Shown here: piece by piece, positions 1-25,145 of the stretch
Layout of the letters: every line of letters begins with the position of its first letter
How positions within the stretch are numbered: the stretch's first letter is position 1
Virus record (IMG/VR): IMGVR_UViG_3300047370_000045
Coordinates: 1 to 27,737 of that record
DNA from: a virus
Direction: 5' to 3' (one strand)
DNA: 27,737 nt
Program-made: the position numbers and the translations under genes
The notes under the pieces: generated by a model
Told to the model about the DNA's origin: nothing
What the model saw: only the letters and a program-made list of their open reading frames with translations
The model's database searches: none

Positions 1-281
1 CTTCAGTATTGAGATCTGGTGATGTATCATTCATTGGTGATGGTTCGAATGTTAGTGTAGTTGTAGCTGATAAAAAGAATGCTACTTCTAACTCTTGGGA
101 TGCTACTTTGGGCACAACTGATAAAGTGTTTAAAGTAAATTTCAGGATTGATAATTTCAAAATGCTAGATGGGGATTATGTAGTTTCTATTTCTAAGAAA
201 AGAATCTCTAAGTTTGCTTCTAAGATGAATGACTTGACTTACTTCATCGCAGTTGAAGCTGACTCTACTTTTGACTTTTAA
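1..281 (+). CDS. 45: Sliding clamp gp45, C-terminal part (truncated by window edge)
   Basis: This is the C-terminal third of the DNA polymerase processivity clamp, a ring that encircles DNA and tethers the polymerase and, in T4, also late-transcription factors. The reading frame is open from the first complete codon at base 3 and runs to TAA at 279-281; the start lies outside the window, and the TTG at base 9 is an internal Leu codon. The end, with a KRISKF-type strand and the terminal segment YFIAVEADSTFDF, has the character of T4-like gp45. The clamp-loader genes follow directly, as in T4 and marine T4-like phages, which supports the call more than the short fragment alone. Confidence 0.87.
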   Translation, partial: SVLRSGDVSFIGDGSNVSVVVADKKNATSNSWDATLGTTDKVFKVNFRIDNFKMLDGDYVVSISKKRISKFASKMNDLTYFIAVEADSTFDF

Positions 282-4251: not shown

Positions 4252-6735
4252 ATGAAGTTTTATACAAATGTTCATCCCCATGGTAATCAGCTTCTAGTCA
4301 GATATATTTCTGGCACGAAGCGAAAAGCCGAGAAGATACCTTTCAAACCCAGTGTATGGGTCACAAAAGGTAAAGGCGAAACACCATACAAAACTCTTAA
4401 AGGGCATCCTGCTTATAAAATCCAACAAGGATCTATAAAGGATGCTAAAGACTTTGTACACCGATACAATGATGTTATGGAAGTACATGGTCAAACTCAG
4501 TGGCATTACCAATATATGCATGATGAGTTTAAGGATGATATTGAATGGGATAAAGAACTTATTAAGATTTGGTCAATAGATATTGAGACTGAAACTGAAG
4601 AAGGATTCCCTAATATTGAACGAGCCAACGAGAAACTTCTACTAATTACTTTACAAGATAATCATTCAAAAGAGATTATTACTTTCGGCACTAAAGAATA
4701 TACAGGTGACGAAAAGCAACATAATAACTGGCGATATGTATATTGTCGTGATGAAAAGATTTTATTTCACAAGTTCCTAGATTACTGGATTGAAAATTAT
4801 CCTGATGTAATTACAGGTTGGAACTCTCAGTTTTTTGACCTCGCATATTTATGGCGAAGAATGTGTCATGTAATTGGCGAAGACCATGCTCGTAGATTGT
4901 CTCCTTGGAAAATTGTACATGAACGAGAGATATTCGTAAAAGGTAATAAAGAGTTCGCCATAGCAATCGCAGGTATTGCTCAACTTGATTATCTTGACCT
5001 CTATAAAAAATATACTTACACAGCACAAGAATCTTATCGTCTAGATAATATTGCCTTCGTTGAACTTGGTCAAAAGAAACTTGACCATAGTGAGTACGCA
5101 ACATTCTCAGAGTTCTATAGAAATGATTGGAATAAATTTGTTGATTATAATGTTATTGATACAGTATTAGTTGACAGGCTAGAAGATAAAATGAAGCTGA
5201 TTGAACTTCAGCTTACTATGGCATATAATGCTAAGATTAATTATGATGATGTATTTTCTCAGGTTCGTATGTGGGATATGATTGTTCACAATTATCTGAT
5301 GAAAGTAAATGTGGTAATACCACCGAAATCTAATGAAGATAAAAAGACTAAGTTTGAAGGAGCATTCGTAAAAGAGCCATTGATTGGTTTACATAAATGG
5401 GTTGCTTCATTTGACTTGAACTCGCTGTATCCCCATTTAATTATGCAATATAATATATCTCCCGAAACTCTACAACCTGAGTCTGTAGAAAAAGGAGTTG
5501 AGCATTATCTTAAAAACCCTGCCATAGATTCGGAGTTTGCTGTTGCTGCCAATGGCTCTCAATATAGAAAAGATTTCAGAGGTGTATTCCCTAGTATTAT
5601 GGAAGACTTCTATAATCAAAGGAAGATCGCTAAGAAAGAGATGCTTCAAGCACAGCAATTATATGAGGATGAGAAAGATACTCGTCAGCTAAAAGTTATA
5701 TCAAGTAAGAATAATTATCAGATGGGTTTGAAGATTGCTCTTAACTCAGCTTATGGTGCACTTGGTAATCAATACTTCAGATACTTTAATTTAAAAATGG
5801 CTGAAGCTATTACTACTTCTGGTCAATTATCTATTCGTTGGATACACGATAGAATGAATGAATATCTCAACAAGATAATCGGTACAGAAAACGAAGATTA
5901 TATTATCGCTGTTGATACAGATTCTATATATGTGACATTCGAAAAACTTGTAGATAAAGTTATGGGAGATAAACAATCTGACATAAATAAAACCATCAAG
6001 TTCCTAGACACTATATGTAATGATAAATTTATGCCATATATAAATGAACAATATTCTGAACTGGCTAATAGGCAAAATGCCTTTGCTAACAAGATGGTTA
6101 TGGAAAGAGAAGTTCTAGCTGATAAAGGTTTATGGACTGCGAAAAAAAGGTATGTTCTTTCAGTGTATAATTCTGAAGGTGTGTCCTATAAAAAACCTAA
6201 GATGAAAATTATGGGACTAGAGATGATTAAATCTTCTACTCCCTATGCTGTTCGTGAACTTCTAAAGGGTGTGATACCAGTTATCCTACATGGCGATAAT
6301 AATGAACTCTTCAAATATATTGAAGAGACTAGAAACTATTTCAACTCTTTACCTATTGAAGAGATTTCCTTCCCTAGATCTGTAAATGGTCTCAGCAACT
6401 ATAAAGATTCTATGAGCATATATAGGAAAGCAACTCCTATTCATGTCAGAGGTGCTTTACTTTATAATCATTATTTGAAAGAAAAGAACATAGACCTAAG
6501 ATACAATGATATTAAAGAGGGTGAGAAAATTAAATTCGTTTACTTGAAAAAACCTAATGTCATCAGGGAGAATGTTATATCCTTCCTAGATGTTGTTCCT
6601 AAAGAGTTCGGCATACATGATTATGCTGATTATGACTTGATGTTTGAAAAGGTATTCTTAGATCCAGTCGATATCATGATACAATCACTTGGATGGAAAG
6701 TAAAGCAAACAGCCAGTCTTGAGGATTTCTTTTAA
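4252..6735 (+). CDS. 43: DNA polymerase gp43 (family B, with 3'-5' exonuclease)
   Basis: Replicative polymerase of the phage. Of the 827 residues (T4: 898), the exonuclease domain comes first with DIE at 110-112 and the later YNVIDTVLVDRL motif. Polymerase motif A, DLNSLYPHLI, starts at D388; motif B, KIALNSAYG, spans about 494-502; motif C, VDTDS, has the metal-binding D555 and D557. All catalytic residues expected of family B enzymes are present, so it should be active in both synthesis and proofreading. The C-terminus ASLEDFF is the counterpart of the T4 gp43 tail that inserts into the gp45 clamp; the same tail recurs on two downstream modification enzymes. Transcription probably starts at the ATG itself (promoter 4216-4244). 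Confidence 0.98.
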   Translation: MKFYTNVHPHGNQLLVRYISGTKRKAEKIPFKPSVWVTKGKGETPYKTLKGHPAYKIQQGSIKDAKDFVHRYNDVMEVHGQTQWHYQYMHDEFKDDIEWDKELIKIWSIDIETETEEGFPNIERANEKLLLITLQDNHSKEIITFGTKEYTGDEKQHNNWRYVYCRDEKILFHKFLDYWIENYPDVITGWNSQFFDLAYLWRRMCHVIGEDHARRLSPWKIVHEREIFVKGNKEFAIAIAGIAQLDYLDLYKKYTYTAQESYRLDNIAFVELGQKKLDHSEYATFSEFYRNDWNKFVDYNVIDTVLVDRLEDKMKLIELQLTMAYNAKINYDDVFSQVRMWDMIVHNYLMKVNVVIPPKSNEDKKTKFEGAFVKEPLIGLHKWVASFDLNSLYPHLIMQYNISPETLQPESVEKGVEHYLKNPAIDSEFAVAANGSQYRKDFRGVFPSIMEDFYNQRKIAKKEMLQAQQLYEDEKDTRQLKVISSKNNYQMGLKIALNSAYGALGNQYFRYFNLKMAEAITTSGQLSIRWIHDRMNEYLNKIIGTENEDYIIAVDTDSIYVTFEKLVDKVMGDKQSDINKTIKFLDTICNDKFMPYINEQYSELANRQNAFANKMVMEREVLADKGLWTAKKRYVLSVYNSEGVSYKKPKMKIMGLEMIKSSTPYAVRELLKGVIPVILHGDNNELFKYIEETRNYFNSLPIEEISFPRSVNGLSNYKDSMSIYRKATPIHVRGALLYNHYLKEKNIDLRYNDIKEGEKIKFVYLKKPNVIRENVISFLDVVPKEFGIHDYADYDLMFEKVFLDPVDIMIQSLGWKVKQTASLEDFF

Positions 6736-9308: not shown

Positions 9309-10700
9309 ATGCGTATTGAAGACACTATATTAAATAATCTTATTCATAATGATGAGTACTGCCGAAAAGTAGTACCATTTATTAAAGCTGAATATTTCCA
9401 AGATAGAACTGAAAAGATAATATTTGAAGAGTTTGATAAACTGTTCTTACAGTACAACAACATTCCTAATCCTGATATGATTGCTTCTGAAGTTTTTGAA
9501 CGAAAAGATTTATTTGAAAACGAGCATGCTCTTATTCAGGAAAAAATACAGCAGATGTCTGAGCCAAAATCTATTAATGATAATTGGCTATATGATAAAA
9601 CTGAGGAATGGTGTAAAGAACGAGCAGTACATAATACTATTATGGACTCTATCAAAATTATCGATGGTCGTGATAAAGTACATACCAAAGATGCGATTCC
9701 TAAAATGATGCAGGATGCTTTGGGTGTTTGCTTTGATGACTCTGTCGGTCATGATTATCTTGAAGATGCTGATGATAGATTTCAATTTTATCATAAGATT
9801 GAAGAAAAAATTAAATTTGATATTGATTTATTGAATACTATTACTCGTGGTGGTTTGAGTAAAAAAACTCTTAACATCGCCATGGCTGGTACTGGTGTTG
9901 GTAAATCTTTGTTTATGTGTCATCATGCATCTAGTGTATTGAACGAGGGTATGAATGTTCTTTATGTCACTATGGAGATGGCTGAAGAAAAGATATCTGA
10001 AAGGATTGACGCAAACTTATTGAACTTGGGTATGGATGAAATTAAAGTTGTTGACCATGATATATTCAGTAAGAGAATTAATAAAGTAAAAGAAAACAGT
10101 AAAGGTAAACTGATTGTAAAAGAATATCCTACAGGTGCTGCTCATGCAGGTCACTTCAGAGCATTACTTGAAGAACTTAAAATGAAAAAAGGTTTCAAAG
10201 CAGATATTATATTTATCGATTATCTAAATATCTGTGCTTCGCAAAGACTAAGGATGGGTGCCAATGTAAATACTTATTCTTATATCAAATCTATTGCTGA
10301 AGAACTAAGAGGTCTGGCAGTTGAATATAACTGTCCTATCGTATCAGCTACTCAAACTACAAGAGGTGGATATAATAATACTGATGTTGGTCTTGAAGAT
10401 ACTTCGGAGTCTTTCGGTTTACCAGCTACTGCCGATCTAATGTTTGCGATTATTGCTAGTGAAGAACTGGATAATATGGGACAATGGATGATTAAACAAC
10501 TTAAAAACAGATATTCAGATCCTAACTATTATAAGAGATTTGTAGTTGGGGTTGATAAAAACAAGATGAGATTGTACAATGTTGAAGAATCTGCCCAAAG
10601 TAATATAATGGATAGTGGGCAGGAAGAAAAAGATATCGGAGCAGTATTTGATAAAACCGATGCAGGTGAACGATTAAGTATGGAAGGATTTAAGGTATGA
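9309..10700 (+). CDS. 41: Replicative DNA helicase gp41 (DnaB-like)
   Basis: Hexameric 5'-3' helicase that unwinds DNA ahead of the leading-strand polymerase and partners with the primase. The 463 residues match T4 gp41 (475). The N-terminal half is the helical domain; the RecA-like C-terminal domain has the P-loop GTGVGKS at 194-200, LYVTMEMAEEKISERIDANL (the DnaB H1a region) shortly after, Walker B IIFIDYLNIC, and SATQTTRGGY as the H3 region. No primase gp61 gene lies in the window. The gene ends GERLSMEGFKV, not a clamp-type tail. Its TGA overlaps the next ATG (ATGA), coupling helicase and dioxygenase synthesis. Confidence 0.96.
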   Translation: MRIEDTILNNLIHNDEYCRKVVPFIKAEYFQDRTEKIIFEEFDKLFLQYNNIPNPDMIASEVFERKDLFENEHALIQEKIQQMSEPKSINDNWLYDKTEEWCKERAVHNTIMDSIKIIDGRDKVHTKDAIPKMMQDALGVCFDDSVGHDYLEDADDRFQFYHKIEEKIKFDIDLLNTITRGGLSKKTLNIAMAGTGVGKSLFMCHHASSVLNEGMNVLYVTMEMAEEKISERIDANLLNLGMDEIKVVDHDIFSKRINKVKENSKGKLIVKEYPTGAAHAGHFRALLEELKMKKGFKADIIFIDYLNICASQRLRMGANVNTYSYIKSIAEELRGLAVEYNCPIVSATQTTRGGYNNTDVGLEDTSESFGLPATADLMFAIIASEELDNMGQWMIKQLKNRYSDPNYYKRFVVGVDKNKMRLYNVEESAQSNIMDSGQEEKDIGAVFDKTDAGERLSMEGFKV

Positions 10701-11998
10701 CAAAAACAATAACAGCACCTAAGAAATTTGACTGTGAAAATATATTGGGTAGATTTGGTGACGAAAGTCATTATGAGTTGTTAGTTGATTATGATTGTGA
10801 TTTTTATGCTCCTACACCTATGGGTGAGGAAAACTCTGAAGAAAATATTATATTCAAGTTTAGAAAGAACTTCTTTTCTCAAGAACAACAAGACGAAGCA
10901 TATAAAGGACTTCGTGAAGCAGCAGGTGCCACTGAAAATCGTGGACTCGCAGCAGGTATAGAAAAAACCAAATCGCTTGGCTCTAGAGATTGGGTCACTA
11001 ATTACCATGAAGAATTATTGGCATATTTTCAAAACCCATCTACAACACTAGATGGTTCTGACCCAGTAGAAAATATTAAAGCTAAGTGGAAAGGTAGAGA
11101 GAATATTGCTGATGACAGTAGAGGTAATGTATGGTTGGCTCTTAAAGTTGCTGAGGAAGCATTTGAGTTTGAAGCATGGGTTGAAGAGATAAGGTTATTA
11201 CCCAAAGATGAAATGGTAGCTGAAGCGAATAGAGTTAGAGATAAACTTACATCTACAACTTCTTATGCTAATCAGGTTTTCTCAGGTATCGCAGGTTATT
11301 TTGACAGATATCCTCGTATTCCTTTTGGTCGTCCTACAACTTACACTCGTGATAATTATGATAAGTTTGAGATGGCACTTCCTTTCTTACAACAACTTAG
11401 TAAAGGATTTGAAGATCTATTACCTGTCAGATATGGTAAGCAGAATGAAGCATGTGGTAAATTAGATTCTAAGTTTATTATTCCAGGAACTGTATTTACT
11501 ACTGCTACTGTAAACAAAACTTTTAGAACAGCTTACCATAGAGATGCTGGTGATTTGAATGAAGGTTTTTCTAATCTTACTGTTGTATCTAATAATGGTA
11601 AATACTCAGGTGGTCATTTAATACTTCCTGAATATAAGGTTGCTGTAAACATTCGTCCTGGAGATTTATTACTAATTAATAATCATGACGGAATACATGG
11701 TAATACACCTATGGTTATGGAATCTGATGATGCTGAAAGAATATCATTCGTGTGTTATTTTAGGGAAAAAATGTTAGAACTTGGATCTTGGGATTATGAA
11801 AGGGCAAGGGAAGATTATGTCACTGCTCGTAGAACTAATAAAGAACACCCTTTACAAAGAAAATTATGGAATGGTATCAGTCCTGGAATGTGGGATGAAA
11901 GTGAGTGGTACGATTTCTTAGAAAATAAATTAGGTATAGATGTATTGACTAAGTATCATCCCGACAGTCAGTCATCAAGTTTGGAGGAATTTTTCTAA
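10697..11998 (+). CDS. TET/JBP-like 2-oxoglutarate/Fe(II) dioxygenase
   Basis: Predicted DNA base hydroxylase. The catalytic double-stranded beta-helix is in the C-terminal half of the 433 residues: NKTFRTAYHRDAGD gives H281 and D283 as the first two iron ligands, YSGGHLILPEY and RPGDLLLINNHDGIHGN give the distal His (H334, less likely H330), and R348 in ERISFVCYF is a candidate for binding 2-oxoglutarate. This arrangement is characteristic of TET/JBP enzymes, which oxidise 5-methylcytosine or thymine in DNA. The N-terminal half is unassigned, with a charged insert at about 115-185. The last residues, SSSLEEFF, mirror the polymerase C-terminus. ATGA overlap with gp41, TAATG overlap with the glycosyltransferase. 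A different 2OG oxygenase substrate cannot be excluded. Confidence 0.85.
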   Translation: MTKTITAPKKFDCENILGRFGDESHYELLVDYDCDFYAPTPMGEENSEENIIFKFRKNFFSQEQQDEAYKGLREAAGATENRGLAAGIEKTKSLGSRDWVTNYHEELLAYFQNPSTTLDGSDPVENIKAKWKGRENIADDSRGNVWLALKVAEEAFEFEAWVEEIRLLPKDEMVAEANRVRDKLTSTTSYANQVFSGIAGYFDRYPRIPFGRPTTYTRDNYDKFEMALPFLQQLSKGFEDLLPVRYGKQNEACGKLDSKFIIPGTVFTTATVNKTFRTAYHRDAGDLNEGFSNLTVVSNNGKYSGGHLILPEYKVAVNIRPGDLLLINNHDGIHGNTPMVMESDDAERISFVCYFREKMLELGSWDYERAREDYVTARRTNKEHPLQRKLWNGISPGMWDESEWYDFLENKLGIDVLTKYHPDSQSSSLEEFF

Positions 11999-12822
11999 TG
12001 GACATTTTAAAAGATTATCAAATCTGTATCCCATCATATAAGCGACACGAAACTGTGATGAATAAAACCATCGAGGTATTAAAGTCATATAATATTGACC
12101 CAGCTAGGATTAAAGTATTCGTGAATGATGAGGAGCCAGGAGAGTATGACAATTATGTAGATACTTTATCTAAAACTGAATACACAAAAAATATTGAAGT
12201 CGTAAAAGGTGTACCAACTATTGGTAAGCAAAGAAACTTCATAGAGAAGTATTATCCTGAAGGAACTTATGTCATGTCTTTTGATGATGATATTGAAGAA
12301 GTACAAGTTAAGGATGGCGAGCAAAACTTACTGCGTGTTGAAGACTTTGAAAAAGAAGTTATACTTAGAGGTTTCCAAGCATGTGAAGATAACGATGCTA
12401 AGACTTTCGGTATATATGCAGCATCAAATGCGTACTTTATGAAGCATCGTACATATACGAAACTTTGTTATATTATCGCTAGTATGTATGGATTTATAGC
12501 TGACCACGATCCTGAATTAGATCGTCATACTAATCATGGTGAAGATTATGAGTATAGTATGCGTCAATATAGAAAACATGGTGTTGTCGTAAGACTTGAT
12601 GATATTACTGTAAAATCTAATTACTATAAAGAGGTTGGTGGCTTACAAACATTTAGAACTGCTGAAAATATTAAGTCAAGTATTGAGTGGATTGCTGAGA
12701 ACTTTGACGATTTATGTACGATGTATATTCGTAAGACTACTGGGCATGCTGAATTAAAATTGCGTGATACATCTGGTGGTAAATATGATAAAAATTTAAG
12801 CACATTAGAAGGTTTCTTTTGA
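11998..12822 (+). CDS. GT-A glycosyltransferase, TET-associated type
   Basis: Predicted glycosyltransferase of 274 residues. The N-terminal YQICIPSYKR strand and the metal-binding SFDDDIE (D96-D98) define a GT-A fold; THGEDYEYSMRQYRK near residues 180-195 is a likely acceptor or base region, as in GT-A enzymes with an ED motif. It overlaps the TET/JBP-like gene by one base, and such pairs are known as TET-associated glycosyltransferases in phages, so the likely acceptor is the hydroxymethylated base in phage DNA. The sugar donor is unknown. The C-terminus STLEGFF repeats the clamp-type tail of gp43 and the dioxygenase. An alternative is modification of a protein or surface glycan. Confidence 0.82.
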   Translation: MDILKDYQICIPSYKRHETVMNKTIEVLKSYNIDPARIKVFVNDEEPGEYDNYVDTLSKTEYTKNIEVVKGVPTIGKQRNFIEKYYPEGTYVMSFDDDIEEVQVKDGEQNLLRVEDFEKEVILRGFQACEDNDAKTFGIYAASNAYFMKHRTYTKLCYIIASMYGFIADHDPELDRHTNHGEDYEYSMRQYRKHGVVVRLDDITVKSNYYKEVGGLQTFRTAENIKSSIEWIAENFDDLCTMYIRKTTGHAELKLRDTSGGKYDKNLSTLEGFF

Positions 12823-12950
12823 ACGAATTAAAACCATTTATCTTAGGTATAGCAATAGCAATGTTATTTGTTGGTCTTATAATATGGATAAGTCCATATG
12901 GTGGTCAGCATGAGCCATTAGATATATTAATTAGAATCTATCAACAATGA
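12819..12950 (+). CDS. 43-residue membrane peptide with TTG start
   Basis: Small ORF starting with TTG at 12819, overlapping the glycosyltransferase stop (TTGA), and ending in TGA that overlaps the next ATG (ATGA at 12947). It reads NELKPF, then a hydrophobic segment FILGIAIAMLFVGLIIWI (one membrane helix, residues 7-24), then a polar tail with PYGGQHEP. The double overlap and clean membrane helix make this a real gene despite its size and rare start codon. It may anchor or assist the neighbouring cytidylyltransferase; function unknown. Confidence 0.62.
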   Translation: MNELKPFILGIAIAMLFVGLIIWISPYGGQHEPLDILIRIYQQ

Positions 12951-13366
12951 GAACTGGTATAACTGCTTCAACTTTCGACCTGCTTCATGCTGGTCATGTA
13001 CAAATGTTAAGGGATGCCAAATCTCAATGCGATTATTTAATAGCATGTTTACAGATAGATCCTAGTATAGATAGAAAAGATAAAAATGCTCCAATACAAA
13101 CTGTCGTTGAAAGATACACACAATTAAAAGCAGTAAAATATGTTGATGAGATTATACCATATTCAAGCGAAAAAGATTTAGAAGATATCTTAGAATTATA
13201 TGAGATTGATGTTAGAATACTAGGCGAGGAATATAGAGAAAAAGATTTTACTGGTAAGGATATATGTAAGAGAAGAGATATAGAATTATATTTTAATAAG
13301 AGGGAACATAGGTTTTCCTCCACAGATTTGAGAGAAAGGGTGAGTGAGCAATGGTCTGGAAAGTAG
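12947..13366 (+). CDS. Cytidylyltransferase-like nucleotidyltransferase (TagD-like)
   Basis: A 139-residue member of the HxGH nucleotidyltransferase superfamily, which transfers a nucleoside monophosphate to a small phosphorylated substrate. ITASTFDLLHAGHVQML carries H14 and H17 of the HxGH motif; VERYTQLKAVKYVDEII and ILGEEY follow; RFSSTDLRERV is the C-terminal ST-motif. Length and motifs fit glycerol-3-phosphate or related cytidylyltransferases, also common in marine T4-like phages. Substrate unknown. It is coupled to the membrane peptide before it and overlaps the cupin by 16 bases. In this operon it could make an activated donor for the glycosyltransferase, though an envelope or lipid role is equally possible. 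Confidence 0.85.
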   Translation: MRTGITASTFDLLHAGHVQMLRDAKSQCDYLIACLQIDPSIDRKDKNAPIQTVVERYTQLKAVKYVDEIIPYSSEKDLEDILELYEIDVRILGEEYREKDFTGKDICKRRDIELYFNKREHRFSSTDLRERVSEQWSGK

Positions 13367-13665
13367 CAAAGAAAGACGAAAGATATACTGTATTAGATTA
13401 TGAAGGATTGAATGTTCTCGTACCTTCTCTCACAATTTTACAACCTGGATGTGAAACTAATGGTCATGTACACAGTGACCCACAACAGGAAGAAGTTTAT
13501 GTATTTACAACTGGCACTGGACTCATGGAAGTTGAAGATGAAACGATCTCTGTAAAAGCTGGAGACATCATCCCAGTGCCAGCCAATAAATTTCATAAAG
13601 TCTATAATAATGATGTAGTGCCATTACACTTTGCTGCTGTATTCAATGGTGCTAGATATGAGTAA
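13351..13665 (+). CDS. Cupin-domain protein
   Basis: Single-domain cupin of 104 residues. The metal-binding set is visible: H39 and H41 in NGHVHSD, Glu 47/48 in QEEVYVF, and H82 in NKFHKVYN, with the second motif GDIIPVPANKFH. Small cupins of this type include sugar-phosphate isomerase-like and dioxygenase-like proteins, so the reaction is not assignable. It overlaps the cytidylyltransferase gene by 16 bases, and the two often accompany each other in marine T4-like phages, hinting at one pathway. It is the last gene of the gp41 operon before a 35-base gap with a late-type promoter motif. Confidence 0.83.
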   Translation: MVWKVAKKDERYTVLDYEGLNVLVPSLTILQPGCETNGHVHSDPQQEEVYVFTTGTGLMEVEDETISVKAGDIIPVPANKFHKVYNNDVVPLHFAAVFNGARYE

Positions 13666-13687
13666 ACCCAACCTTTTCCCAATATCA

Positions 13688-13700: not shown

Positions 13701-14249
13701 ATGGCAAAGTGGTATAGAGATAAAGCAATAATCAATGTCAGAGGTGGAGATGCCGAGACTAGAAAACTTGTTCGCTCTATCGCCCACTGGGTTTCTCGAA
13801 AAACTATGGATGTTCGACTCCGAACATCTGTCACTGTAAATATCGTAATACAAAAAAACTTATATCTTAAGGAAAAAGTCCAAGGATTATCTTGGATTGA
13901 CGATGAAGCATATCGTCCTAAGAAATTTAAGATACAGGTTGAAAAGGAATCTAGACTAAGACCTTTGCTAGAAACTATTGCCCATGAAATGATACATGTT
14001 AAGCAATGGGCATCTGGTGAAATGTATGAATATTCTGATGGCTTTAGGACTCGTTATAGAAAGCAAGGGTTTAACACTAAAAAGTTAGATTATTGGGATG
14101 CTCCTTGGGAAGTAGAAGCACATGGTAAAGAGGTTGGTCTATTCGTAAGATGGGCAGAAGAAGAAGGATATAACAAACTTCCTTGGGCACAAATTGACTT
14201 CCTAAAACCTGAGTATGCCAAGAAAATTAAAAATCAAATAAAATCGTAA
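13701..14249 (+). CDS. SprT-like zinc metallopeptidase
   Basis: A 182-residue predicted zincin. The zinc-binding HEMIH motif is at 95-99 (TIAHEMIHVKQW), and a conserved downstream Glu in PWEVEAHGKEVG probably provides the third ligand. Similarity in layout is to SprT/Spartan-type peptidases, which in cells cleave proteins crosslinked to DNA. The N-terminus is basic. A phage use could be clearing DNA-bound protein or processing a host protein; neither is shown. The start is predicted to be at or next to the transcription start if the CTAAATA motif is used, and there is no ribosome site. Confidence 0.75.
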   Translation: MAKWYRDKAIINVRGGDAETRKLVRSIAHWVSRKTMDVRLRTSVTVNIVIQKNLYLKEKVQGLSWIDDEAYRPKKFKIQVEKESRLRPLLETIAHEMIHVKQWASGEMYEYSDGFRTRYRKQGFNTKKLDYWDAPWEVEAHGKEVGLFVRWAEEEGYNKLPWAQIDFLKPEYAKKIKNQIKS

Positions 14250-22173: not shown

Positions 22174-23139
22174 ATGAGTAGTGAAAAGAATGGTCCAGTG
22201 GACATCCCAGAAACTGACGAACAATGGGATGAACTTATCAACGAAGCAGATGTAGAAGAACATCTGGCACAACAAAAACAACTAGAGGAAGAAATGAAAA
22301 GTGGGTTGACAAAACCTACAGAATCAAACCCTAGTGTAAATCCTTATAGTACAGATCCTAATGCACCTCTTCCTGAGGGTGTGCTTAAAAGAGTTATGGG
22401 TATGGCTATTCCTACTAGAGAAAAACAACTAGAGGATTATGAGAAATATAAGGAAGCAACTGCTAAAACAACTGACAAATCCAAAGTAGATTGGGCGATT
22501 GAACAGATTGGCGATAATAATTTAGAAGGTGCTCAAGAATGGCTAAAAGAAAATAAACAAGAGATTGATGAAAATAAAAGGTTGACAATTACCGAAGGAC
22601 AAGCTGTTCAAGTACACTATGTTAAATTCTTATCAGAAGAAGAGTTTGAGAAAAAAATTATTGAAGGTTTGGCTGAGATTAAACAGCTAGAAGTATCTGA
22701 GATTATGGAAGCTGGTGGTATGGATGCTCACCTCGTAAGGGATTTAGATATTGATTCGCTTGATGCTATCGAACTAATTATGGATGCTGAGGATATGCTT
22801 GGTGCCCAAATCGAAAATACTGAGATTATGTGGGTCAAAACCCTTAGAGATATCTTTGAAGTTATTAAGTATAAGATCGAAAATGATAATATGCCTTATC
22901 CTATACCTGAATTCGACGAAGAAGATATTATCTTTAGACCAACTACAGATACAGTAGATGGTAAAGAAGTACATTCAGGCAACTCTGCTTATAAACAATT
23001 CATGGCAGGGACTGATGAAAAGCATCGTATGGAAACTGATATAGACAAATATCTCGAAGAAGAAGAGGAAAGAGAGAAAAAATTGCGTGACCTTTTAGAC
23101 GATGATGACGATGATTTATCAGTTGGACACAACAAATAA
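22174..23139 (+). CDS. Acidic protein with acyl-carrier-protein domain
   Basis: A 321-residue very acidic protein. Residues about 155-235 read as an acyl carrier protein: LVRDLDIDSLDAIELIM places Ser195 in the DSL motif that receives the 4'-phosphopantetheine arm, followed by AEDMLGAQIE and the helix IMWVKTLRDIFEVI, as in bacterial ACP. The remainder is charged and likely unstructured: a helical Glu-rich N-terminal third, and a C-terminal tail with a DDDDDD run. A good ribosome site (ggag) precedes ATG 22174. ACP use in phage is unknown; it may lie in lipid or modified-sugar chemistry, or hijack a host phosphopantetheinyl transferase. The neighbours look virion-associated. Confidence 0.7.
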   Translation: MSSEKNGPVDIPETDEQWDELINEADVEEHLAQQKQLEEEMKSGLTKPTESNPSVNPYSTDPNAPLPEGVLKRVMGMAIPTREKQLEDYEKYKEATAKTTDKSKVDWAIEQIGDNNLEGAQEWLKENKQEIDENKRLTITEGQAVQVHYVKFLSEEEFEKKIIEGLAEIKQLEVSEIMEAGGMDAHLVRDLDIDSLDAIELIMDAEDMLGAQIENTEIMWVKTLRDIFEVIKYKIENDNMPYPIPEFDEEDIIFRPTTDTVDGKEVHSGNSAYKQFMAGTDEKHRMETDIDKYLEEEEEREKKLRDLLDDDDDDLSVGHNK

Positions 23140-23516: not shown

Positions 23517-25145
23517 ATGTCAGAAGTTTTAGGATATCAAGAGTTTATGGAAGCATTGGATTCAGTGAATTCAAAAGCTGTAAAGAAAAAATTTAAAGAT
23601 AGAAAAGACAAGGATATCGACAACGATGGCGATGTCGATGCTTCTGACAAATATCTTCACAAAAGACGCAAAGCTGTTTCTAAGGCTGTCAAAAACGAAG
23701 ACATGATGAAACCTATGACCTCTGCTGAAAGAGCAAAGGAAATGCAAAAGAAAGCTAACAAAGTGAAAAGGGATGCGGAAGCAAAACTTAAGAAAGCAAA
23801 AGGCATAACCATGGGAGAAAAACTTGACAATAAAGATAAGAAAGTTGTCAAAGATGTAGTAAAAGCATTAAAAGGTGCAACTAAAGCACATTCAGGTCAA
23901 GCTAAAGAATTAGAAAAAGCTATGAAAACTGAAGGTAAGTATGCAAAATATTCAGATTTACTTTTAAAGAAGCAACGCATGAGAAAAATGGGTCAAAACA
24001 CTATGGTGGTTGATAAAGAAATAGAAGCTGAAAAGAAAAAAATTCAAGCAGGTGGTATGAAAAAAGAATCGCTTGATGAAACAATCAGAAACTATGGTGA
24101 CTTGAGAAAAATGCTGGACCAAAAAGCTAGAATGAAAGCTATGGGACAGAATATTGATTCTATTAGTGACAAAATTAAAAAAGCCAGAATAGAATATGGC
24201 AAAATGCTCAACAAAGAATCACTTGATGAAGAAATGCCAGCAGCATTTAAAGCCATGCTTATCCAAAGAGATAAAATGAGAAAAGCAGGAAAGAATATTG
24301 ATGCCATTAGTGACAAAATTAAAAAAGCAAGGCATGAATATATGAGAATGGCTCCCAATGCATTCAAGAAAGAAGAAGCAATAGACGAGAAAGGTCCTGG
24401 TCTGTATCATAATATAAATATGAAAAGAAAACGAGGAGAAAAAATGCGTAAAAAAGGTGAGAAGGGTGCACCTACAGAAAAAGATTTCGCTAGTGCTGCA
24501 AAAACTGCTAACGAAGAAAGAGAAAACTGTCATTCAAAAGACCATGACTGTGCTACTGTCGTAGAACATATTGTATGGGGATTCGGAAAGCCAGTTTATG
24601 AAAGTCACGCAGTACCAACTGACGATGGCTATGTTTCTTGGTATGATGTAGAATTCGAACATGGTGTTGAAAAAGAAGTACCAACTGAGGATTTAAAAAT
24701 TTATACTACAGAAGACCATTCTAAGTATATGAAACCGAAATCTAAAAAATCAGTAAACGCACAAAAGAAAAAAGATAAAGACGAAATGATTGATGAAGGA
24801 GAATTCTCCGATGCAGAAATCGCTAAAGCTGTCGACATCGCTAAGAAGATGGCTGGACATAACTACACTGGTGCTACAAATGCAATTAATAAAATGAAAA
24901 AAGGATTAGCATCTAATGGAAAAGTTAAGTATGCTTTGAAAAAAGCAGCAGAAAGTTTTGAGACCTTTAATGGTCTAACTATATCAGAAGTTGAAGAGAT
25001 CGTTTCAGATCTTACCGACTCTGCCCATGACTACATTAAGTTGGTGGAAGATGGAGACTTAGAGTCCGTCAACGAGCCAAAAGTTGAGCCAGTCAAAGGG
25101 ATGCCCTTATCATATAAACAATTTCAATCTAAAATAGGAGACTAA
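23517..25145 (+). CDS. Modular Lys/Glu-rich protein with EF-hand-like loop and helical repeats
   Basis: A 542-residue protein of virion-core type. The N-terminus (YQEFMEALDSV at 8-17) resembles the T4 internal-protein leader. Residues 33-44 (DIDNDGDVDASD) are a calcium-binding EF-hand/dockerin-like loop with Asp at positions 1, 3, 5 and 12. Residues 141-291 hold three helical repeats ending in SLDE or AIDE (possible protease sites). Then comes a conserved phage domain, CATVVEHIVWGFGKPVYESH with VSWYDVEFEHGVEKEVP, followed by FSDAEIAKAVDIAKKMAGHN and GYNTGATNAINK-like helices. The C-terminus ends SYKQFQSKIGD. Structural or internal head protein is inferred. Confidence 0.68.
   Translation: MSEVLGYQEFMEALDSVNSKAVKKKFKDRKDKDIDNDGDVDASDKYLHKRRKAVSKAVKNEDMMKPMTSAERAKEMQKKANKVKRDAEAKLKKAKGITMGEKLDNKDKKVVKDVVKALKGATKAHSGQAKELEKAMKTEGKYAKYSDLLLKKQRMRKMGQNTMVVDKEIEAEKKKIQAGGMKKESLDETIRNYGDLRKMLDQKARMKAMGQNIDSISDKIKKARIEYGKMLNKESLDEEMPAAFKAMLIQRDKMRKAGKNIDAISDKIKKARHEYMRMAPNAFKKEEAIDEKGPGLYHNINMKRKRGEKMRKKGEKGAPTEKDFASAAKTANEERENCHSKDHDCATVVEHIVWGFGKPVYESHAVPTDDGYVSWYDVEFEHGVEKEVPTEDLKIYTTEDHSKYMKPKSKKSVNAQKKKDKDEMIDEGEFSDAEIAKAVDIAKKMAGHNYTGATNAINKMKKGLASNGKVKYALKKAAESFETFNGLTISEVEEIVSDLTDSAHDYIKLVEDGDLESVNEPKVEPVKGMPLSYKQFQSKIGD
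23937..24389 (+). repeat. Three helical repeats in the 23517 gene
   Basis: Protein repeats at residues 141-188, 189-238 and 239-291, each with a QRMRKMGQN or KARMKAMGQN or DKMRKAGKN element and a DKIKKAR helix. At the DNA level the second and third copies share almost the same bases at 24150-24187 and 24294-24331 (144 bases apart); the first copy is more diverged. Confidence 0.8.

Follow-up and report, generated by a model that had tools for sequence, protein, structure and literature searches.

A complete virus record of 27,737 bases (IMG/VR record IMGVR_UViG_3300047370_000045, here called the window) is a piece of a T4-type phage genome in which a TET/JBP-family dioxygenase and a TET-associated glycosyltransferase (TAGT) end in the same type of short C-terminal tail as the DNA polymerase gp43 of the same phage. 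We read these tails as clamp-binding motifs of the kind found on gp43, gp55, and gp33 of T4, with tethering to the sliding clamp gp45 as their most likely function, at a probability of about 0.78. Tethering is favored because, according to passages of PMC2988020, the C-termini of T4 gp43, gp55, and gp33 are highly similar hydrophobic/acidic gp45 ligands that are interchangeable in vitro, and because T4 alpha-glucosyltransferase, though not beta-glucosyltransferase, is described in passages of PMC13216743 as pulling down gp45. The three tails listed in the initial annotation (gp43 ASLEDFF, dioxygenase SSSLEEFF, and glycosyltransferase STLEGFF) agreed letter for letter, and its observation that two adjoining enzymes of unrelated fold, set among replication genes, bear one tail type was confirmed. 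The genes run in the order gp45 (C-terminal part), gp44, gp62, regA, Hsp20, gp43, uvsX, and gp41, followed by the dioxygenase (hereafter TET) and the TAGT (Table 1). TET and glycosyltransferase sequences identical to those of the window were also found on longer contigs, the longest being G001 (61,677 bases), a contig from this phage or a nearly identical one that carries a complete gp45 gene. The full-length gp45 of G001 matched T4 gp45 (1czd, E = 2.3e-23) and RB69 gp45 (1b77/1b8h, E = 4.6e-20), and by these matches it is a clear homologue of the T4/RB69 clamp.

Recent DNA duplication and chance were both rejected as sources of the tails. The tail codons differ among the gp43, TET, and TAGT genes, which argues that the tails are not a copied DNA end. 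Chance was judged by motif frequency and by the ends of open reading frames (ORFs). The pattern [ST]LE.FF had no occurrence in 456,448 internal positions (six-frame ORFs of at least 200 codons from 18 whole or partial phage records), while the loose pattern L[DESGTNA].[FL]F occurred 79 times in the same positions. On G001, clamp-like ends were borne by 3/93 ORFs (of at least about 80 amino acids), these being gp43, TET, and TAGT only. Tail-like ends were found on 50 of 2,592 ORFs of at least 120 codons in 18 whole or partial phage records, and were assigned by hand count to gp43 (11), TET (16), TAGT (11), Dam (1), GNAT (2), and other proteins (9).

Conservation was examined in homologues retrieved from viral contigs by scans with single proteins and by alignment, most of them 42 to 89% identical. 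The A1 scan comprised the best 80 of 558 relatives and the A2 scan the best 80 of 158; the ranking was by likeness to the tail-bearing window protein with its tail included, so that the counts refer to the nearest homologues. For the TET, glycosyltransferase, and gp43 counts, identical last 60 residues were collapsed, and open-ended ORFs and gp43 matches ending short of query residue 780 were dropped. The tail was kept at 46/46 distinct C-termini of gp43, 110/119 of TET, and 47/53 of TAGT; the alignment of C-termini proposed as a check in the initial annotation accordingly shows that most of the homologues sampled, including those only 43% identical, retain the tail. The linker ahead of the tail varied in sequence and in length among the TET and TAGT homologues. 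Entropies computed from tail-bearing rows only (105 TETs) were 0.19 bits at the Leu and 0.39 and 0.32 bits at the aromatic positions, with values of 2.2 to 3.6 bits at positions -16 to -2. The tails share with the T4 motifs an extreme C-terminal position, a hydrophobic-acidic pattern (T4 gp43 ASLDFLFG, gp55 SLDFLYE) that here resembles the phage's own gp43 tail, a variable linker, and a phage-encoded gp45; in passages of PMC2988020, the gp55 motif is likewise said to follow a divergent, variable-length linker, and a structure of RB69 gp45 with a gp43 peptide is described. They differ in that the putative motif is here on base-modifying enzymes.

The tail was associated with the T4 replication gene set. 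Loci were classed by detection of any of seven T4 replication genes, and all P-values and Fisher tests given here are without phylogenetic correction. Among the TETs, 92/93 ends were tailed when a T4 replication gene was present in the locus compared with 18/26 elsewhere (Fisher P = 1.5e-5), and among the TAGTs the numbers were 32/32 and 15/21 (Fisher P = 0.002), the rows of both comparisons sharing ancestry. Seen from the other side, 8/9 tail-less TET ends and 6/6 tail-less TAGT ends lay in loci without a detected T4 replication gene. The tail-less TAGTs at 54 to 64% identity include those of L043 and L047, which stop before the tail, and of L016, which has a different end; no T4 replication gene was detected with them. 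The L043 protein, about 60% identical to the TAGT of the window, ends in LRLKDMR upstream of the linker and tail and is encoded beside a TET gene and near a terminase gene. L047 resembles L043, while the TAGTs of L016, L195, L228, and L229 have other ends. The tail-less contigs can be set apart from T4-like phages only partly, as PHROG matches are a weak control in which the portal contrast alone is clear (phrog_21 in L229 versus phrog_213 in the T4-like DLP_6); the terminases of the tail-less contigs (best matches phrog_15, phrog_2, phrog_38, and phrog_5653) partly overlap the weaker matches of DLP_6 (best phrog_5989, then phrog_2 and phrog_38). Three phages that are not T4-like by record size and taxonomy, HTVC112P, P12024L, and mycobacteriophage Rich, encode a TET without the tail, and the Rich TAGT also lacks it. 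Separately, neither a family B nor a family A DNA polymerase was found on four TET-TAGT contigs of 96 to 136 kb (G011, G036, G037, and G043), of which G011 has gp44, gp45, gp62, and regA. The association just described was tested against T4 replication genes generally and not gp45 alone, and a distinct aromatic C-terminus recurs on the helicase gp41, both of which would suit a tail directed at another T4-type replisome partner such as the clamp loader, the helicase, or the single-strand-binding protein. We consider such a partner very unlikely given that the tail matches the phage's own gp43 tail, whose T4 and RB69 counterparts are known gp45 binders.

Covariation of the tails was evaluated in pairs with a tail on both proteins. 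The aromatic pair agreed between the TET and TAGT of one phage in 40/46 cases, compared with a permutation mean of 29 and 0/2000 permutations as high (kinship uncorrected). TET and gp43 tails agreed in 46/48 pairs (permutation P = 0.04), and glycosyltransferase and gp43 tails in 9/10 pairs (P = 0.10); because the gp43 tail hardly varies, both of these comparisons have low power. Only two of 30 further records searched had gp43, one of which was cut before its end. Individual phages were consistent with covariation, including L226, in which gp43, TET, and TAGT all end in FL, and Cr30, in which the gp43 end ADLSSLFD resembles the SDLSKLF end of a TAGT-like protein (E = 8.5e-4, under the Pfam cut-off), but the tails of L010 and L190 were at odds with it. 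Joint LF/LF pairs of TET and TAGT were located at three separate places in the TAGT tree, where gains and losses are indistinguishable, and clustering of the labels on this tree was not significant (48/500 shuffles as low).

By profile, key residues, and predicted fold, the two window proteins are members of the Tet_JBP (PF12851) and TAGT (PF20691) families. The TET profile scored 73.1 bits against a cut-off of 34.9, and residues H281, D283, H334, and R348, the HxD...H and R residues that we take to be ligands, were invariant in 28 aligned sequences. The TAGT profile scored 45.6 bits against a cut-off of 27.5, and the D96-D98 Asp triplet was invariant in 19 aligned sequences; these 28 TETs and 19 TAGTs, drawn from those at hand, were the set used for the structure alignments. 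The TET model had a mean predicted local distance difference test (pLDDT) score of 84.3, and its 26 best Foldseek matches were TET2, CcTet, NgTET1, and CMD1 chains at TM-scores of about 0.3 to 0.5. The TAGT model, with a mean pLDDT of 88.6, was GT-A-like and matched AvpGT, RmlT, and TarS at about 1e-7. Confidence fell toward the C-terminus in both models, with block-mean pLDDT dropping first to 71 and finally to 57 in TET and values below 50 at TAGT residues 271 to 274. A short helix is placed at the extreme end in both models, and baseplate hub proteins likewise have tail-like ends, as might be expected if the tail were a structural C-terminal helix or a degradation signal whose likeness to gp43 reflects convergence on hydrophobic ends; we regard this as highly improbable in view of the low confidence of the modeled ends, the variable linker, the occurrence on unrelated folds, and the absence of the tail from TAGT homologues such as that of L043.

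Similar tails were detected on further enzymes encoded near TET or gp43. DLP_6 encodes a divergent TAGT ending in SDLSSFFN and L162 a divergent TAGT with a similar tail; in L186, a GT-B glycosyltransferase encoded directly after TET ends in STLDDLFG; and in C48C1, a D12 adenine methylase (Dam, PF02086; L049:3805-4689) encoded next to gp43 ends in STLDAFFG. TET loci without a TAGT often hold genes for glutamine-amidotransferase-like, amidoligase-like, and GNAT proteins, amino acid:DNA transferase (ADDT, PF18724), and P-loop kinase. The strict tail was present in 15/15 GNAT proteins of type 1 (76 to 100% identical to one another's query) and in 0/37 glutamine amidotransferases, 0/16 amidoligases, and 0/4 FkbM proteins. 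The tail is absent from families whose expected substrates are small molecules and is often found on those expected to act on DNA, with the kinase as a clear exception. In the cultivated phage Melnitz, gp43, a C5-methyltransferase, and a short TET are encoded consecutively (L301:1415-6194); this TET, 25% identical over the matched part, ends in NLNDFLGE, and the Melnitz gp43 ends in TTLEDFFG. A small endonuclease VII/HNH-like protein encoded immediately ahead of TET in another locus (L036:8341-8670) ends in SLEEFMV.

The DNA behind TET differs between related phages. The gp43, uvsX, gp41, and TET of the window are 84 to 96% identical to those of L113 and L114, as is gp44 (in the comparison with L113 only), while the window TAGT is 84 to 86% identical to the TAGTs of L009 and L010; the TETs of these two share just 43 to 49% identity with that of the window. 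DNA similarity to L113 and L114 (82 to 86%) ends at window position 12002, four bases beyond the TET stop, and restarts at 13707 and 13687, respectively. The similarity break right behind the TET stop, together with the conflicting relatedness of TET and TAGT, indicates by sequence comparison that the same TET is paired with differing decoration modules, although which module is the newcomer is a matter of interpretation. The alternative TAGT cassette brings its own tail, and its cytidylyltransferase and cupin may make the sugar donor. At the cassette site, L113 has an FkbM methyltransferase, an ADDT, and a P-loop kinase instead of the TAGT module.

The sister cassette also bears on the substrate base. 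ADDT, to judge by its Pfam name, is presumably linked to modified thymine. C5-methyltransferase (PF00145) was found in 0/30 records of one set and 0/12 of another, with Melnitz as positive control, the sets including many fragments as well as some records from the same phage and some without the tail; the viral pathway from 5-methylcytosine (5mC) to 5-hydroxymethylcytosine calls for a C5-methyltransferase in the same genome, which was lacking in all 42 of these records, many of them partial. The idea that a clamp-tailed C5-methyltransferase completes a 5mC pathway was rejected on the same count and since the "DNA methyltransferase" that bears a tail in C48C1 is the D12 adenine methylase. Because C5-methyltransferase is missing from these 42 records and close relatives encode ADDT and P-loop kinase where the window encodes TAGT, we consider thymine somewhat the likelier target. 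A thymidylate-synthase-type protein (PF00303) was present in 1/17 records (Cr30) and ThyX in 9/14, and no homologue of the dUMP-hydroxymethylase-type thymidylate synthase (PF00303) was found in G001, a contig of 61.7 kb that is possibly incomplete. The ADDT and P-loop kinase that the sister phages encode behind a TET with 84% identity to that of the window invite comparison with the thymidine hypermodification of phages M6, ViI, and phiW-14, which proceeds via a 5-hydroxymethyldeoxyuridine (5hmdU) kinase and alkylamine transfer. In those phages, according to passages of PMC6449724, 5hmdU is incorporated and then phosphorylated in DNA by a kinase step, whereas here TET would probably make 5hmdU within DNA and several of the enzymes are tailed.

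A number of observations weigh against gp45 tethering. (i) Tails were present on 18 TET and 15 TAGT ends in loci without a detected T4 replication gene; many of these ends are on short contigs and so carry little weight either way. (ii) The nine other proteins of the hand count were four baseplate hubs (phrog_150), one head-tail adaptor, one P-loop kinase, and three without identification; given such hub and adaptor ends, the pattern by itself is no proof, and it can come from chance or another cause, even if modification enzymes and polymerase predominate. (iii) The strict tail was found in only 5/13 GNAT proteins of type 2, in 4/24 and 1/5 ADDTs (16 of the other 20 in the larger set having the half motif GLExF), and in 1/22 P-loop kinases, and the Melnitz C5-methyltransferase lacks it, although these kinases and the methyltransferase are expected to act on DNA. 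(iv) The T6 TAGT and the T4 alpha-glucosyltransferase, beta-glucosyltransferase, and Dam are without the tail, though their phages have gp45. (v) The gp55 of this same phage (G001 35632-36192, minus strand) ends in SDALDDVNE with no clear clamp motif, and 3/31 gp55 ends had the strict tail, several others having a looser or more internal form. (vi) The Cr30 TET ends in GATLF without the full tail, the L040 TET has no tail although the L040 TAGT does, and S-CBWM1, for which no T4 kinship is claimed, has a tail-less TET and a TAGT ending in ELEDLLP. (vii) The contact of T4 alpha-glucosyltransferase with gp45 is reported, in passages of PMC13216743, not to be the main determinant of the alpha-glucosylation share. 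The wider proposition that every DNA-acting T4-like enzyme is tailed was rejected on account of the T6 TAGT, the three T4 enzymes, the Melnitz C5-methyltransferase, and nearly all kinases. Baseplate hubs (phrog_150) ending in GLxxFF or GIDDFF were located at L283:17088-17813, L268:7138-7866, L252:7963-8691, L084:15098-15802, and L095:13697-14395.

The last of these points would also suit tails that bind gp45 without any coupling to the fork, such that leftover DNA-bound gp45 simply concentrates TET and TAGT locally at whatever time after loading, or that the tails compete with the polymerase and the late sigma factor for clamps as a form of regulation; moreover, passages of PMC2988020 relate that T4 clamp motifs serve transcription besides replication. 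We consider such uncoupled binding unlikely, as the tail recurs on DNA-modifying enzymes near replication genes, some replacing one another, and the simplest reading of this recurrence is that it brings enzymes to DNA. The initial annotation had proposed that hydroxylation and glycosylation ride the clamp behind the fork. The sequence part of that proposal is strongly supported by the conservation of the tail, the variable linker, the link to replication genes, and the unrelated folds, whereas the binding of TET and TAGT to gp45 and the coupling to the fork are steps that we infer.

In the mechanism we propose, the folded TET and TAGT domains would each be followed by a flexible linker, and the [ST]L[DE]x[FL]F tail at its end would dock on the phage's own gp45 ring. 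The dioxygenase held on the ring would act on freshly synthesized DNA by hydroxylating a 5-methyl group, which most likely belongs to thymine, the glycosyltransferase would soon thereafter cap the 5-hydroxymethyl base, and other lineages would fit different DNA-acting enzymes onto the same ring. The gp45 trimer could carry the polymerase and the modifiers simultaneously, and fast post-replicative base modification would be the most likely use of the tether. A broader proposal, to which we give slightly less than even odds, is that the clamp serves as a toolbelt for hypermodification, where TET, GT-A, GT-B, GNAT, amino acid:DNA transferase, and Dam enzymes with a gp43-type tail would act on the clamp, such that thymine of nascent DNA is hydroxylated and then either glycosylated or aminoacylated and acetylated.

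Table 1. Features of the tail-bearing region and the neighboring cassette in the window
Feature	Position	Strand	Evidence
gp45 sliding clamp, C-terminal part	3..281	+	100% match to G001; complete gene at G001 24348-25058, minus strand
gp43, family B DNA polymerase	4252..6735	+	PF00136 E=1.4e-29, PF03104 E=4.9e-21; end ...QTASLEDFF (stop)
gp43 C-terminal tail ASLEDFF	6712..6732	+	Sequence; T4 gp43 end is KASLDFLFG
TET/JBP-family 2-oxoglutarate (2OG)-Fe(II) dioxygenase, with N-terminal extension	10697..11998	+	PF12851 E=2e-20; end ...QSSSLEEFF (stop)
Dioxygenase tail SSSLEEFF	11972..11995	+	Sequence, conservation, low pLDDT at end
TAGT, GT-A-like fold	11998..12822	+	PF20691 E=9.9e-12; end ...LSTLEGFF (stop)
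Glycosyltransferase tail STLEGFF	12799..12819	+	Sequence, conservation, low pLDDT at end
Alternative cassette: TAGT, cytidylyltransferase-like protein, cupin	12003..13686	+	Break in DNA similarity to L113 and L114
Cytidylyltransferase-like protein, possible sugar-donor enzyme (putative role)	12947..13366	+	PF01467 E=3.5e-15; phrog_7878 E=7.6e-37
Cupin, possible sugar enzyme (putative role)	13351..13665	+	PF07883 Cupin_2 E=8.2e-11; PF01050 mannose-6-P isomerase at sub-cut-off level only

Two further products of the window were noted. The helicase gp41 has the recurrent aromatic end mentioned above (window 10671-10697; also L113, L134, L154, L169, and L189), e.g., MEGFKV or FDGFKF, which is perhaps another docking motif, and a protein encoded at window 22174-23139 has an acyl-carrier-protein-like phosphopantetheine site (PF00550 E = 4e-5).

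The closest known systems each share part of this arrangement. T4 alpha-glucosyltransferase, offered in the initial annotation as a precedent, does glycosylate DNA and associate with gp45 (Sommer 2004, cited in passages of PMC13216743), yet it has no such tail, belongs to another family, and works on 5-hydroxymethylcytosine made at the nucleotide level, so the precedent holds for the contact and not for the tail. Viral TETs reportedly occur with C5-methyltransferases and TAGT glycosyltransferases, in work ascribed to Iyer in 2013 and Burke in 2021; the TET/JBP and TAGT neighbors of these systems, presumably acting in series, correspond to those of the window, which differs in that its group combines clamp-like tails with the absence of C5-methyltransferase from the 42 records, Melnitz being the case that has one. 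In eukaryotes, DNMT1 is tethered to PCNA via a PCNA-interacting peptide (PIP) box so that there, too, a short motif keeps a DNA-modifying enzyme on its sliding clamp, but the clamp motif, enzymes, and chemistry are unrelated and the likeness is one of description only. No description of a clamp-tethered TET or TAGT was found among the matches listed for literature on the sliding clamp with TET, glycosyltransferase, or hypermodification and on phage TET pathways, or in passages of PMC13216743, PMC6449724, and PMC11404850. If the toolbelt proposal is true, these phages would hold a counterpart of PCNA-tethered DNA modification, in the form of a replication-coupled, base-J-like pathway with decoration cassettes swapped behind a fixed TET. 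Clamp tethering would explain how post-replicative base modification at the polymer level keeps up with replication ahead of host nucleases, which T4 achieves in part by modification at the nucleotide level. Replication-coupled modification would become testable with short peptides and purified gp45, and the gp43-type tail would offer a usable signature for finding new DNA-modifying enzymes in T4-like phages.

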